Shown: positions 796 to 55,737 of the stretch, one piece after another
How the letters are laid out: every line of letters starts with the position of its first letter
How positions within the stretch are numbered: the stretch's first letter is position 1
Source of the DNA: Shouchella clausii
GTDB lineage: Bacteria > Bacillota > Bacilli > Bacillales > Bacillaceae_D
Reading direction: 5' to 3'
Length of the DNA: 64,000 nt
NCBI RefSeq assembly: GCF_002250115.1
Contig: NZ_CP019985.1
Coordinates: forward strand, 2,914,001 to 2,978,000
Translations under genes and position numbers: made by a program
Notes under the pieces: model-generated
Databases searched by the model: none
What the model was told of the DNA's origin: nothing
The model's input: only the letters and a program-made list of their open reading frames with translations

Positions 796-796
796 C

Positions 797-863
797 CAGG
801 CTGTAGACAAACGCTCGCATTTCTTCGTGTCTCACCCGACTGACAAGCGTTGCGATCAGTCTG
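797..863 (-). repeat. CAGACTG element, short copy, inverted
   Basis: A 67-bp element beginning CAGGCTGTAGACAAACGC and ending CAGTCTG. Read on the minus strand it carries the family's right end (GCGAGCGTTTGTC then CAGCCTG). It lacks the ~55-bp middle part found in the full copies at 48391 and 55263. It lies between the converging ytoI and ytpI genes. Confidence 0.75.
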
Positions 864-874
864 AGTGATGTTGC

Positions 875-13373: not shown

Positions 13374-13432
13374 CTGACTGATAGAAAATGCTTGGCAAAC
13401 AATGATGTATGCGAGCGTTTGTCTACAGTCTG
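13374..13432 (+). repeat. CAGACTG element, short copy
   Basis: Starts ACTGACTGATAGAAAATGC and ends GTCTACAGTCTG. The last ~26 bases are identical to the right end of the full copies at 48391 and 55263, and the central ~65 bp are missing. It sits directly between the pyk stop and the pyk terminator. Confidence 0.75.
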
Positions 13433-25932: not shown

Positions 25933-26526
25933 ATGAGAATTGGCTTAACTGGCGGGATTGCCAGCGGGAAATCGCTTGTGGCAACCTATTTGGAGAAACA
26001 GGGCATTCCGGTTGTTGATGCAGATAAACTTGCACGTCAGGTTGTAGAGCCTGGCGAGCCGGCGCTTGCCCAAATCGTCGCGACATTTGGCCAAAACGTT
26101 CTCCAGACTGACGGCACGTTAGACCGGAAACAGTTAGGGGCGATCATTTTTGGTGATGAACAAAAAAGGAAGCAGTTGAATCAAATCGTTCATCCAGCTG
26201 TACGGCAATTGATGAAAAAACAGGCCGAACTATACGAACAAAGGGGCTACACTCGAGTTGTTCTCGACATTCCCTTGTTATACGAAAGCAACTTGTTTCA
26301 TATGGTCAACCAAGTTTGGCTCGTTTATGTAGACGAAGCAACTCAGCTTCGGCGTTTGATTGAGCGAGATGGCTTAACTGAAACAGAGGCAAATCAACGA
26401 ATTGCTGCGCAAATGCCATTAACCGCCAAAAAAGCACAGGCCGACGTGCTCATAGACAATAATGGAACGAAGGAAAACACCTATCGACAAGTAGACAATG
26501 CGTTGGCTAAGACCGCCCACGAATAG
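25933..26526 (+). CDS. coaE: dephospho-CoA kinase
   Basis: 197 aa. It phosphorylates the 3'-hydroxyl of dephospho-CoA, the last step of CoA synthesis. The P-loop GLTGGIASGKS is at 4-14, the substrate lid contains DADKLARQVVEPG, and LDIPLLYE is the Walker-B-like motif. ATG after TAGGAGGAG. The last codons (KTAHE-stop) lie inside a terminator stem that reappears 120 bp downstream as KTAIE-stop. This shows a duplication of the 3' end around a repeat element. Confidence 0.95.
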   Translation: MRIGLTGGIASGKSLVATYLEKQGIPVVDADKLARQVVEPGEPALAQIVATFGQNVLQTDGTLDRKQLGAIIFGDEQKRKQLNQIVHPAVRQLMKKQAELYEQRGYTRVVLDIPLLYESNLFHMVNQVWLVYVDEATQLRRLIERDGLTETEANQRIAAQMPLTAKKAQADVLIDNNGTKENTYRQVDNALAKTAHE

Positions 26527-26532
26527 GCGGTC
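26508..26532 (+). repeat. first copy of duplicated coaE terminator hairpin
   Basis: GACCGCC and GGCGGTC form a 7-bp stem overlapping the coaE stop codon. The same 25-bp block, differing only in the loop (cac versus att), recurs at 26628-26652. This upstream copy has no T-tract. Confidence 0.85.
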
Positions 26533-26533
26533 A

Positions 26534-26627
26534 CAGACTGAAGACAAGCGCTCGCATACGTCGTTGCTCACCTCGTCTGACAAACGCTTTCTTTCAGTCT
26601 GGACAGTTGTCGACTCTGTCGACAACT
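26534..26627 (-). repeat. CAGACTG element with GTTGTCGAC hairpin, inverted short copy
   Basis: 26534-26601 is a 68-bp element bounded by CAGACTG and CAGTCTG, internally deleted relative to the full copies and in inverse orientation. It is followed by a perfect hairpin, AGTTGTCGAC with its complement around TCT (26604-26626). A related hairpin lies on the same relative side of the element at 55235. The whole unit is enclosed by the two terminator copies. Confidence 0.8.
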
Positions 26628-26658
26628 TAAGACCGCCATTGAATAGGCGGTCTTTTTT
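26628..26658 (+). terminator. functional copy of the coaE terminator
   Basis: GACCGCC/GGCGGTC stem followed by six T. It retains a relic of the coaE end (AAG ACC GCC ATT GAA TAG), so it is probably the part of the original gene end displaced by the repeat element. Confidence 0.88.
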
Positions 26659-48304: not shown

Positions 48305-48390
48305 GGGCTAAACCCCCTTTTTTTGCATAATTGTTTTCAATATATACGGCACTGCAACAAAAAAGGTTTCACTTTTATTAATAAAAGTTT

Positions 48391-48514
48391 CAGAGTGATA
48401 GAAAACGCTTGCCAGACGAGGAGTGCAGCCGAGGGAAGATGCGAATAGAACGGGGGTTCATGAGCATATGAGTGAGGCAAACGACGAAGTATGCGAGCGT
48501 TTGTCTACAGTCTG
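48391..48514 (+). repeat. CAGACTG element, full copy
   Basis: 124 bp, starting CAGAGTGATAGAAAACGC and ending GTCTACAGTCTG. By eye only two differences from the copy at 55263, 7 kb away. The ends form imperfect inverted repeats (AAACGCTTGYC against GAGCGTTTGTC). The centre carries CGGGGGTTCATGAGCATATG. It lies between the divergent ysdB and ysdC genes. Confidence 0.92.
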
Positions 48515-52753: not shown

Positions 52754-55180
52754 TTGCTCGTTTCATATAAATGGCTACAAGAATATATAGAGATTGGTGA
52801 TATTAGCCCGCAAGAGATTGCCGAGAAAATGACGCGGAGCGGTATAGAAATTGACTTTATTCATGAACGGAACAAAGGGGCAACCAATGTGGTTGTCGGT
52901 TATGTGGCTGAAGTAGCACCTCATCCTGATGCGGACAAGCTAAATGTATGTCAAGTTGATATTAGCGAGGAAGAGCGTGTCCAAATTGTTTGCGGAGCGC
53001 CAAATGTTAGCTCTGGCCAGTATGTCGCCGTTGCCAAAGTAGGGGCGCGCTTGCCTGGTGGCATTAAAATTAAAAAAGCGAAATTGCGTGGACAGCACTC
53101 CGAAGGGATGATTTGCTCTTTGCAAGAGCTCGGCGTTGACAACAAACTAGTGCCTAAGGGCTATGTTGACGGGATTTATGTATTCCCGGAAACACAAAGC
53201 GTTGAACCTGGACAAGATGCGTTAGCACTTTTCGAGTTAAACGATAGTGTGCTGGAACTTGATTTAACACCGAATCGTTCTGATTGCATGCATATGCTTG
53301 GCGTTGCTTATGAGTTGGCTGCCCTTTATGATCGGCCAATAAAAATGCCGAAAACTAAAGTGAAGGAAGTCATTGAATCTGCTGACGGTTATATCGATGT
53401 CAGCGTTGAAAATGGCGAAGACACACCGTTTTATCAAGCCCTTGTAATAAAAGATGTTAAAATCGGACCATCGCCTTCATGGCTGCAAAACCGGCTAATG
53501 GCAGCAGGTATCCGTCCTATCAGCAACGTTGTTGATGTCACCAACTACGTGCTTCTCGAATATGGGCAACCATTGCATGCGTTTGACTACCATGCCCTTG
53601 GCTCGAAATCAATCCATGTGCGTCGTGCAAATGCAGAAGAGGCGTTTACTACACTAGATGGGGAGAAGCGGACACTATCGCCTGAACAGTTAGTAGTCAC
53701 AAATGGGCGCGAACCAGTCGCGCTTGCCGGTGTAATGGGCGGCCTTCATTCAGAGGTGACAGCGGCAACAACGACGATCGTATTAGAGGCTGCGGCCTTC
53801 CATCCGACAGTGGTTAGACGCTCGGCTCGTCTTGCCGGTTTACGCAGTGATTCTAGCGCTCGATTTGAAAAAGGCATTAACCAGGAACGGGTGTCAGAGG
53901 CAGCACGCCGAGCTGCTTACTTAATCCAAGAAATAGCTGGAGGGATCGTGTTAAGCGGAGCTGCCATTGCGGATGCGCGTGTTCGCTCGGAGAAAGTGAT
54001 TGCCCTTGATTTGGACAAAATGAATGAGCGCATTGGGACAGATTTGTCCATCATGGAAGTTGCGGCATTAATGAGACGTCTCCAGTTTCCGTGTGAAAAA
54101 GTCGGCTCCGACCTACATGTAACCGTTCCACATCGCCGCGGCGATATTACGATTCCAGAGGATTTGTATGAAGAAGTGGCACGTCTGTACGGATATGACC
54201 AGCTTCCTTCGACATTACCTGTTGGCAACACTACACAAGGGAAGCGGACCGCTGAACAGGCAAAACGTCGGAAAATGGAGGCCTATTTAAGAAGTGCGGG
54301 CCTTTCTGAAGCGATTTCGTATGCGTTAACCAGTTCAGAGAAAGCAGCGTTGTTTGCTGAGGAAACGATTAAGCCGATCCAAGTAGCCATGCCAATGAGC
54401 GAAGAACGGAGCACAATGCGTACAAGTTTGCTTCCTCATTTATACGATATTTGCGCGTACAATTTGAATCGGAAAAACAATGACGTCCTCCTGTATGAAC
54501 GTGGCTCAGTGTTTTTGAGCGAGCAAGAAACGTTGACGGAACTACCTAAAGAACAGGAACGTCTTGCTGTCCTGTTAAGTGGGACGTATATGAGTCATCC
54601 GTGGCAAGGCGAGAAAAAAGCAGTCGACTTTTATGTGCTAAAAGGGATTGCCGAAGGCTTAATGGAATCGCTTGGCCTCAGTGAACAAATTGAATACAAG
54701 CCGGATGTGCGCCCAGGTTTCCATCCAGGTCGTACTGCCAATGTGTTGCTCAAAGGCGAGTCAATTGGTTTTCTAGCCCAAGTCCATCCGAGTACGCAAA
54801 AAACACTTGATTTAAATGAGACATACGTGTTGGAACTAAATGTAGATGCGCTCTTTGCCGCTGAGACGGAGGCGCTTATATACAAAGGGATTCCACGCTA
54901 TCCAGCGATTACCCGCGATATGGCTCTAGTTGTTTCAAAAGAAACGACGGCAGCTGAATTGATGGCAATTATCCGTGAAACTGGCGGCGAATTAGTAGAA
55001 ACAGTTACCATTTTCGATGTGTACGAAGGCGAGCATATGGAAAGCGGAAAGAAATCAATCGCCTTTTCTCTCACTTACCGCCATGCTGAACGGACATTAA
55101 CCGACGAAGAAGCATCTTTGGCTCATGAAAGGATAGTAGCAGAAGTGCAAAAGCAAACGGGTGCCGTGTTGCGGGCATAG
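52754..55180 (+). CDS. pheT: phenylalanyl-tRNA synthetase beta subunit
   Basis: 808 aa, TTG start after GGAGGG. Domains: B1/tRNA-binding OB fold (about 40-150), B3/B4 editing domain (about 210-400, with SNVVDVTNYVLLEYGQPLHAFD), B5 (about 405-480), catalytic-like core (about 490-690), C-terminal ferredoxin-like anticodon-binding domain (about 715-808). Normal length (B. subtilis 804 aa). The 3' side carries a duplicated terminator with a repeat element in between. Confidence 0.97.
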   Translation: MLVSYKWLQEYIEIGDISPQEIAEKMTRSGIEIDFIHERNKGATNVVVGYVAEVAPHPDADKLNVCQVDISEEERVQIVCGAPNVSSGQYVAVAKVGARLPGGIKIKKAKLRGQHSEGMICSLQELGVDNKLVPKGYVDGIYVFPETQSVEPGQDALALFELNDSVLELDLTPNRSDCMHMLGVAYELAALYDRPIKMPKTKVKEVIESADGYIDVSVENGEDTPFYQALVIKDVKIGPSPSWLQNRLMAAGIRPISNVVDVTNYVLLEYGQPLHAFDYHALGSKSIHVRRANAEEAFTTLDGEKRTLSPEQLVVTNGREPVALAGVMGGLHSEVTAATTTIVLEAAAFHPTVVRRSARLAGLRSDSSARFEKGINQERVSEAARRAAYLIQEIAGGIVLSGAAIADARVRSEKVIALDLDKMNERIGTDLSIMEVAALMRRLQFPCEKVGSDLHVTVPHRRGDITIPEDLYEEVARLYGYDQLPSTLPVGNTTQGKRTAEQAKRRKMEAYLRSAGLSEAISYALTSSEKAALFAEETIKPIQVAMPMSEERSTMRTSLLPHLYDICAYNLNRKNNDVLLYERGSVFLSEQETLTELPKEQERLAVLLSGTYMSHPWQGEKKAVDFYVLKGIAEGLMESLGLSEQIEYKPDVRPGFHPGRTANVLLKGESIGFLAQVHPSTQKTLDLNETYVLELNVDALFAAETEALIYKGIPRYPAITRDMALVVSKETTAAELMAIIRETGGELVETVTIFDVYEGEHMESGKKSIAFSLTYRHAERTLTDEEASLAHERIVAEVQKQTGAVLRA

Positions 55181-55205
55181 TGTAAAATGGAAAGAAATAG
55201 AACAA

Positions 55206-55232
55206 TGGAGCGATTGCATTTAGCAATCGCTT
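55206..55232 (+). repeat. first copy of duplicated pheT terminator hairpin
   Basis: GAGCGATTGC pairs with GCAATCGCTT around ATTTA. The 27-bp block is repeated exactly at 55385-55411. This upstream copy is followed by GAGG and so lacks a T-tract. Confidence 0.9.
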
Positions 55233-55386
55233 GAGGTTGTCGACAAAGTCGATAACCGCCCTCAGACTGATAGAAAACGCTTGTCAGACGAGGAGTGCAG
55301 CCGAGGGAAGATGCGAATAGAACGGGGGTTCATGAGCATATGAGTGAGGCAAACGACGAAGTATGCGAGCGTTTGTCTACAGTCTG
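55233..55386 (+). repeat. CAGACTG element, full copy, with GTTGTCGAC hairpin
   Basis: A GGTTGTCGAC hairpin (complement with one mismatch, loop AAA, 55235-55258) is followed by the full 124-bp element from CAGACTG (55263) to CAGTCTG (55386). The element differs from the copy at 48391 at only two positions. The unit is enclosed by identical terminator blocks. Confidence 0.92.
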
Positions 55387-55416
55387 GAGCGATTGCATTT
55401 AGCAATCGCTTTTTAG
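55387..55416 (+). terminator. functional copy of the pheT terminator
   Basis: GAGCGATTGC/GCAATCGCTT stem followed by TTTTT. This copy, downstream of the element, keeps the T-run, so it is probably the working terminator. Confidence 0.85.
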
Positions 55417-55500
55417 CAGTTTCCAATTTTGCTCTCGCATGGTATGATGAACATTAGTTTTAGGGTAGGGCACAATCAATGTGCGCTAGGAGGTTCTTTC

Positions 55501-55737
55501 GTGGAGAAGAACAATAATAAAAAAAGGACAACTGTCCGTATACAAGGACAAACTTACAAAGTGGTGAGCAGTGAGGAACCAGCTCATGTAAAAGAAGTAG
55601 CCTCCTACATGAATGAAAAAATGGAGGAGCTAAAGAAGCGTAATCCTTATTTGGATTCAGCAAAACTAGCTGTTCTCACTGCCTTAAACATTGCTGATGA
55701 ATACTTAAAATTGAAACGCCAATACGAAGGAGAATAA
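55501..55737 (+). CDS. zapA: cell-division protein ZapA
   Basis: 78 aa from the GTG at 55501, preceded by AGGAGG; an ATG at 55429 is too far upstream. It binds and bundles FtsZ filaments at the division site. The N-terminal part has the ZapA pattern (TTVRIQGQTYKVVSSEEPAHVKEVASYMNEKM), and the helical C-terminus would form the dimeric coiled coil. B. subtilis ZapA is 85 aa and likewise precedes the cvpA-like yshB. Confidence 0.92.
   Translation: MEKNNNKKRTTVRIQGQTYKVVSSEEPAHVKEVASYMNEKMEELKKRNPYLDSAKLAVLTALNIADEYLKLKRQYEGE

Follow-up and report, generated by a model that had tools for sequence, protein, structure and literature searches.

Insertion of a 154-bp miniature element at terminator hairpins of Shouchella clausii goes with duplication of the whole hairpin and points to a short-branch IS1182 transposase

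The 154-bp repeat found behind pheT in Shouchella clausii is very probably a miniature, non-autonomous transposable element that an IS1182 transposase of the short branch (ca. 450–480 amino acids) mobilises in trans. Comparison of copies, flanks and empty sites shows that it sits at terminator-like hairpins which differ from site to site, and that its insertion goes with duplication of the whole hairpin. The length of this duplication is that of the hairpin and has no fixed value; transposition itself we infer.

The window, i.e., the whole stretch of 64,000 nucleotides analysed here, covers positions 2914001–2978000 of the 4.52-Mb single contig (C1) that makes up the host genome (G000). The features at pheT, followed by the other copies in the window, are listed below in window coordinates.

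52754–55180, plus strand: pheT (phenylalanyl-tRNA synthetase beta chain), the gene whose terminator is the target (Pfam tRNA_synthFbeta, B3_4, FDX-ACB, tRNA_bind and B5).
55208–55232, plus strand: target-site duplication, upstream copy, the whole terminator hairpin with its T-run cut off (sequence repeat; empty sites in relatives).
55233–55386, plus strand: putative 154-bp miniature element (MITE-like), GAGGTTGTCGAC...CAGTCTG (genome copies, flank alignment, empty sites).
55233–55247, plus strand: left terminal inverted repeat GAGGTTGTCGACAAA, agreeing with the right end at 11 of 15 positions by hand count; pattern found here, to be compared with the left end of the 1537-bp insertion sequence (IS).
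55235–55257, plus strand: small hairpin of the left end, GGTTGTCGAC-AAA-GTCGATAACC (folding; to be compared with the left end of the 1537-bp IS).
55263–55386, plus strand: inner body of 124 bp, a long imperfect hairpin and the sole remainder in several truncated copies (folding, copy comparison).
55372–55386, minus strand: right terminal inverted repeat, CAGACTGTAGACAAA in minus-strand reading (pattern search; comparison with the 1537-bp IS).
55387–55411, plus strand: target-site duplication, downstream copy, with the T-run kept (to 55414) (sequence repeat; empty sites in relatives).
55501–55737, plus strand: zapA, the next gene downstream of the element (Pfam ZapA).
26628–26652, minus strand: hairpin duplicate upstream of the second element copy in the window (sequence repeat).
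26533–26627, minus strand: second copy, internally shortened element of ~95 bp (folding, flank alignment).
26508–26532, minus strand: hairpin duplicate downstream of the second copy, reaching into the last codons of coaE (sequence repeat, Pfam).
48390–48514, plus strand: old copy, inner body only, hairpin duplication not seen (folding, sequence reading).
13376–13432, plus strand: short remnant immediately 5′ of a terminator-like hairpin (folding, sequence reading).
796–865, minus strand: short remnant immediately before a hairpin (folding, sequence reading).

The original prediction had described a terminator block of 27 bp, repeated without mismatch, with a separate hairpin and a 124-bp element between the two copies. 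The identity is exact, the 27-nt block TGGAGCGATTGCATTTAGCAATCGCTT at 55206–55232 being 100% identical to that at 55385–55411, but the true duplication comprises the 25 bp of GAGCGATTGCATTTAGCAATCGCTT (55208–55232 and 55387–55411), which form a complete hairpin; the TG preceding the second hairpin copy is part of the element’s own CAGTCTG end and matches over 2 bp by chance. Likewise, the GTTGTCGAC hairpin and the 124-bp CAGACTG...CAGTCTG stretch are both present, but as one unit of 154 bp (55233–55386). Many genome matches span query base ~50 to 210, so the mobile unit is longer than 124 bp and includes the GTTGTCGAC hairpin. The ends of the element read GAGGTTGTCGACAAAGTC on the left and CAGACTGTAGACAAACGC on the right, and the first base of the left end varies among 41 different copies (34 G, 4 A, 2 T and 1 C). 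Read from the sequence, pheT keeps a complete terminator, since the downstream hairpin retains its T-run, and the element would become a folded part of the 3′ UTR.

As in MITEs, the element is short, carries no gene and is present in many dispersed copies, with a target-site duplication and with empty sites in relatives. At least 43 matches to the element region occur in its own genome (40 of 160 candidates scored); among the 40 best-matching genome loci, 29 include the element’s first bases and with them the small hairpin as well as the inner body, and 11 are without the left part. The right end, searched in the same genome with a 22-base pattern at up to 3 mismatches, was found at 86 places, while the reversed pattern, used as control, was found at 0. 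Two of these places, 3620 and 4501855, lie near both contig ends in stretches 99.94% identical over 3367 bp (C1:3200–6600, L079, and C1:4501400–4504800, L086), probably an untrimmed assembly overlap or else a real duplication, and 85 places is therefore the safer figure. The standard length is 154 bp; a longer form has ~38 extra bases, a stretch located mid-body in L036, L079, L080, L083 and L088, and short forms have a body of ~60–75 bp. Two adjoining copies each are present at L039 (G000:C1:1195842–1196086) and, in the relative G011, at C28:47293–47548, so that one element can lie directly next to another. The shortened second copy of the window, together with its hairpins (26508–26652), sits between coaE and a glyceraldehyde-3-phosphate dehydrogenase gene. 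A search for a larger element with matching ends, by right- and left-end patterns, led at the places read to truncated, short or decayed copies and to no IS.

Duplication of the hairpin was assessed by local alignment of the left against the right flank and called at a score of at least 12, using 79 own-genome elements found by their right end, 37 of which have a left-end candidate. Flanks of the same site reach this score in 31 of the 37 copies and flanks paired across sites in 1 of 1332 pairings, so the duplication is not a matter of chance and the hairpins are site-specific. Some of the six candidate copies without duplication are weak left-end calls. A lack of duplications in most copies, named in the original prediction as speaking against insertion, is thus not seen where a left-end candidate exists, but the other 42 of the 79 elements have none and are read as older, truncated copies. 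Aligned duplications are 13–30 bp long with a median of 25, as measured on 47 sequence-distinct copies from G000 and relatives, which are partly orthologous.

Hairpins are also found beside right ends generally, a stem of score ≥7 lying within 8 nt of 60 of 78 right ends compared with 214 of 5000 random window positions. At least 5 T in the next 8 nt follow 24 of these 60 strong hairpins; among the 18 remaining right ends, several show a hairpin by eye and a few, e.g., L032 and L107, do not. The target hairpins appear to be terminators, terminator-like as they are by sequence. The earlier remark that a T-tract follows only the downstream copy is correct at pheT but fails as a general rule: T after the right copy exceeds A before the left in 23 of 47 duplicated copies and the reverse applies in 19, with 5 ties. 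A rule by which the right end of the element always faces the T-run was dropped on these counts.

Empty sites in relatives provide an independent view of the same junctions. Fifteen sites were tried (pheT and 14 others), and an empty ortholog could be read at ten of them, 17 orthologs in all: in three genomes each for pheT and L021, in two for L036, L012 and L010, and in one for L046, L013, L017, L009 and L026. The remaining five stand outside this count, L020 being occupied in G006, L024 giving two-piece matches and L011, L015 and L016 partial ones. A single hairpin is present in 17 of 17 empty orthologs, hence at all ten sites read. At pheT, the empty site of G006, G010 and G011 consists of AACAATG, GAGCGATTGCATTTAGCAATCGCTT and TTTAGCAG in succession, with a single hairpin, and the full empty sequence common to the three is AACAATGGAGCGATTGCATTTAGCAATCGCTTTTTAGCAG; in G000 the element stands between two copies of this hairpin. 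The proposal that the element entered the terminator and produced a duplication of ~25 bp is borne out by these ten sites, together with the 31 site-specific duplications above, and none of the relatives read has both terminator copies without the element, the finding that was named as its refutation.

At the L017 site, the flanks of G010 (L222) and G011 (L221) show no difference over 421 and 328 bp (100% identity); the element is present in G010 and absent in G011, the difference being exact to the 25-bp hairpin. The G000 element at this site is 98.7% identical, and the G006 element 95.5%. The simplest reading of G011 is a precise loss, as by recombination between two hairpin copies. Repeated insertion is a possible alternative, because the G006 element is no closer to that of G000 than are some elements from other sites (L013, 96.1%). 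At the L013 site (L013, L219 and L220), G000, G010 and G011 share an element of 100% identity, in a stretch where G000 and G010 are ~96% identical, and it is absent from G006; this pattern may reflect transfer, conversion or repeated insertion.

A partner IS was found in the same genome through the Pfam PF13751 loci of the genus. It is 1537 bp long, exists in five copies in G000 and encodes an IS1182 family transposase (NF033551, 484.9 bits at a cut-off of 270) with the Pfam domains DDE_Tnp_1_6, DDE_Tnp_1 and DUF772. Four of the five copies lie between duplicated hairpins, each between its own, and L135 is without duplication. The IS ends read CAGCCTGTCGACAAAGTC on the left and CAGACCGTAGACAAAACGC on the right. 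By hand count, element and IS agree at 15 of 18 positions on the left and at 14 of the first 15 on the right, left end matching left and right matching right; they have only their ends in common, with no convincing match in the interior. This IS is the likely mobiliser of the element. By eye, a hairpin with a T-run behind it can be folded from its left end, and the IS thus seems to bring along a terminator that would shield it from transcription coming from outside.

Within 13 genomes of the genus, the full-length partner IS is present only in G000, while its relatives in G006 and G008 are partial or broken and G010 and G011 give no match. Element matches number 45 in G006, 31 in G008, 43 in G010 and 42 in G011; G005 has 3 weak ones and seven other relatives have none. 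G006, G008, G010 and G011 are draft genomes (about 10 to 290 contigs each), and since drafts can lose repeats, the IS is possibly missing from these assemblies; otherwise, the IS that spread the element in those genomes would have been lost or would be a different one. A decayed IS1182 relative with a CAGACCATAGACAAAACGC end, located at ~219.9–220.4 kb in G000 (L192) and also present in G006 (L193), is a possible former mobiliser of the element. Furthermore, contig C1 of G000 harbors a long-type IS1182 element with an open frame of more than 600 codons at L119 (~1921 kb) and L127 (~4245 kb), identical over at least 1841 bp, and in the short flanks compared no flanking duplication was seen.

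A scan of genome contigs gave 20 loci from relatives, 12 of which carry hairpin repeats at both ends (imperfect in L186): ten from Halalkalibacter urbisdiaboli, one from Fictibacillus phosphorivorans and one from Secundilactobacillus kimchicus. The other eight have no exact gene-flanking repeat of at least 14 bp; six of them are without one or both recognisable ends, and L187, also among the eight, resembles a decayed pair by eye. Exact hairpin duplications surround eight H. urbisdiaboli copies (L174, L175, L178–L181, L183 and L184), with 583–1462 bp between repeat starts. Several of these are clearly shortened inside and therefore provide a precedent for natural non-autonomous derivatives.

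The wider order was surveyed in 299 genomes, with the IS1182 family detected in 197 and above the cut-off in 95, and the best 30 loci were taken by score, not by flanks. A flanking repeat of at least 13 bp is present in 19 of 21 short-transposase elements vs. 0 of 9 long-transposase elements (Fisher p 3.8e-6), with the provisos that decayed repeats can be missed because the search needed exact 13-mers and that the absence at the long-type L252, which has little flank, says little. All 19 short-type repeats are hairpin-like, those of L235, L236 and L251 being imperfect, and L247 and L249 are without a repeat; L235 is the own genome’s L133, i.e., one locus. A transposase tree of 35 rows (23 short and 12 long, with loci below 350 amino acids and most named loci left out) places the 23 short rows, 21 with duplication, on one side of a 100/100 branch and the 12 long rows, all without, on the opposite side, long branches meeting in this tree.

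The geometry of the repeats was analysed in 32 rows, equal to 31 distinct loci (L133 and L235 being one locus; L186 and L251 dropped). The repeat is centred on the hairpin dyad in 26 of the 31 loci and off by one step in 5; it is 19–42 bp long, with A and T as end bases in 23, and the stem often runs on into the outer A and T runs. The joining points are thus placed symmetrically around the palindrome, tending to fall close to where the hairpin passes into its A/T tracts. Among the long-type loci, likely ends could be assigned in L228, L233, L255 and L257, such as GGCTGTCCCAAAAG or TGGGACAAAAC in place of CAGACTGTAGACAAA. Beside these ends no full hairpin is seen by eye, and L233 shows no more than two short arms facing each other (aaaacg / cgtttt), the expected remainder of a replaced hairpin. 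Taken together, the comparison supports the existence of a branch within the IS1182 family that duplicates hairpins. The family probably consists of two branches with the same target, terminator hairpins, and opposite outcomes: the short branch duplicates the whole hairpin, symmetrically about the dyad and over 19–42 bp as set by the hairpin, whereas the long branch, in which IS1272 would be placed by its published size and behaviour, removes it.

In most DDE transposons the transposase determines the size of the duplication, which is short and almost constant. Here the target’s own palindrome sets the length of the duplication, which indicates recognition of DNA structure. In the proposed mechanism, the transposase would recognise the palindrome as a structure, either hairpin or cruciform, and the two 3′ ends of the element would be joined at the 5′ feet of the hairpin, one per strand. 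Gap repair would then copy the hairpin, giving rise to the duplication, and recombination between the two hairpin copies could subsequently excise the element cleanly.

An alternative route is spread by recombination between hairpins, as raised by the original prediction, or by gene conversion; the second terminator copy would then be a by-product. Both flanks are palindromic, and the L013 element, more alike in three genomes than the stretch around it, could be a case of conversion or transfer. However, flanking hairpins of different sites are unrelated (1 of 1332 pairings alike), what the empty sites read lack is the element plus one hairpin, and the transposase-coding IS with matching ends shows the same type of junction, with duplication in 4 of 5 copies, which leaves this route highly improbable. 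Left-truncated copies, common at 11 of the 40 best loci, might instead suggest a retro-type insertion, namely target-primed reverse transcription at terminators in the manner of group IIC introns, which insert at intrinsic terminators; the 3′ end would meet the hairpin and 5′ truncation would result. Yet the truncated copies L025 and L043, which are without the left part, keep remains of the small hairpin’s right arm while the upstream terminator is absent, the pattern of a later deletion, which is expected to take out the upstream hairpin. Truncation at the 5′ side was rejected as a sign of retro-insertion, since truncated copies fit later deletion. In addition, both ends of the element carry terminal repeats that match a DDE transposon’s, group IIC introns are not known to make hairpin duplications, and an Rfam search of 54900–55700 at up to E 1 matched no described structured RNA family; a retro-type origin is very unlikely.

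The element could also be a regulatory RNA element under selection in 3′ UTRs, its positions reflecting function more than mobility. It folds strongly and sits before hairpins, and its gene context is skewed, with a sense gene upstream only in 16 copies vs. a convergent gene downstream only in 6 (p 0.05; both in 12, neither in 13), a bias that appears to be a weak signal. Against this, its presence varies between close relatives, copies decay and truncate, and the A/T-run polarity of the targets is nearly even, so that selection for function as the source of its distribution is improbable. The element may nevertheless act on mRNA after insertion, which is compatible with a mobile origin.

Movement by a short-branch transposase stands as the preferred reading and, if the two-branch division of the family is true, the short branch would be a “terminator-sparing” transposon lineage. 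Miniature elements could then accumulate by the dozens, because insertion leaves a complete terminator and is exactly revertible, and this would explain dozens of gene-end insertions, pheT included, without terminator loss. Related transposases are now available for comparing duplication with replacement, and identical tandem terminators around a short repeat offer an annotation signature of hairpin-duplicating insertion. The ISfinder summary table reportedly gives IS1182 direct repeats of widely varying length, and part of the finding may be known there.

Open-licence PMC papers yielded no description of the miniature element and none of an observed whole-hairpin duplication in IS1182 elements. 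The suggestion of an undescribed terminator-targeting family therefore holds for the miniature element but not beyond it: the element is a new miniature family within a known transposon family, its ends tying it to IS1182, whose member IS1272 is published as hairpin-targeting. Duplication of the whole stem-loop has been drawn as an alternative pathway (pathway b) beside the observed replacement (Wan et al., 2017, PMC5678879), and the same authors point out that palindromic targets in the IS1182 family are mentioned, with no detailed data, by Siguier et al. Because the whole hairpin is duplicated, the loci described here correspond to the product predicted by pathway b (Wan et al., 2017, PMC5678879), which they show in many genomes and place on one tree branch. 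The insertion mode is accordingly a variant drawn earlier, with no demonstration found within the literature searched.

Beyond the review considered here, Correia, RUP, BOX/SPRITE and QMITE repeats are not known for terminator insertion that duplicates a whole hairpin. Group IIC introns are like the element in their insertion at intrinsic terminators but differ in being RNA-based and kilobase-sized, as well as in the missing hairpin duplication and Rfam match noted above. According to the available parts of a review (PMC10969869), Correia, RUP, BOX/SPRITE and QMITE resemble the element in being short, mostly intergenic, hairpin-folding and present in many copies, and differ from it in that these parts describe no terminator insertion with whole-hairpin duplication. 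The short-branch IS1182 IS of Bacillales and kin (H. urbisdiaboli, F. phosphorivorans and S. kimchicus) share with the element CAG-type terminal repeats and palindromic duplications as long as the hairpin, but encode a transposase or are shortened derivatives, whereas the element has 154 bp and only the ends in common with them. IS1272 (TnSha1) shares the family name with the partner IS, which is assigned by NCBI NF033551, and resembles the element in targeting stem-loops without sequence consensus, several of them terminators, five having been confirmed as such by RNA-seq (Furi et al., 2016, PMC4923244). IS1272 is reported to replace the stem-loop wholly or in part and to leave the target unduplicated (Furi et al., 2016, PMC4923244; Wan et al., 2017, PMC5678879). 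Neither the element nor the partner IS shows such replacement: where IS1272 takes the hairpin out, the insertions described here duplicate it whole.
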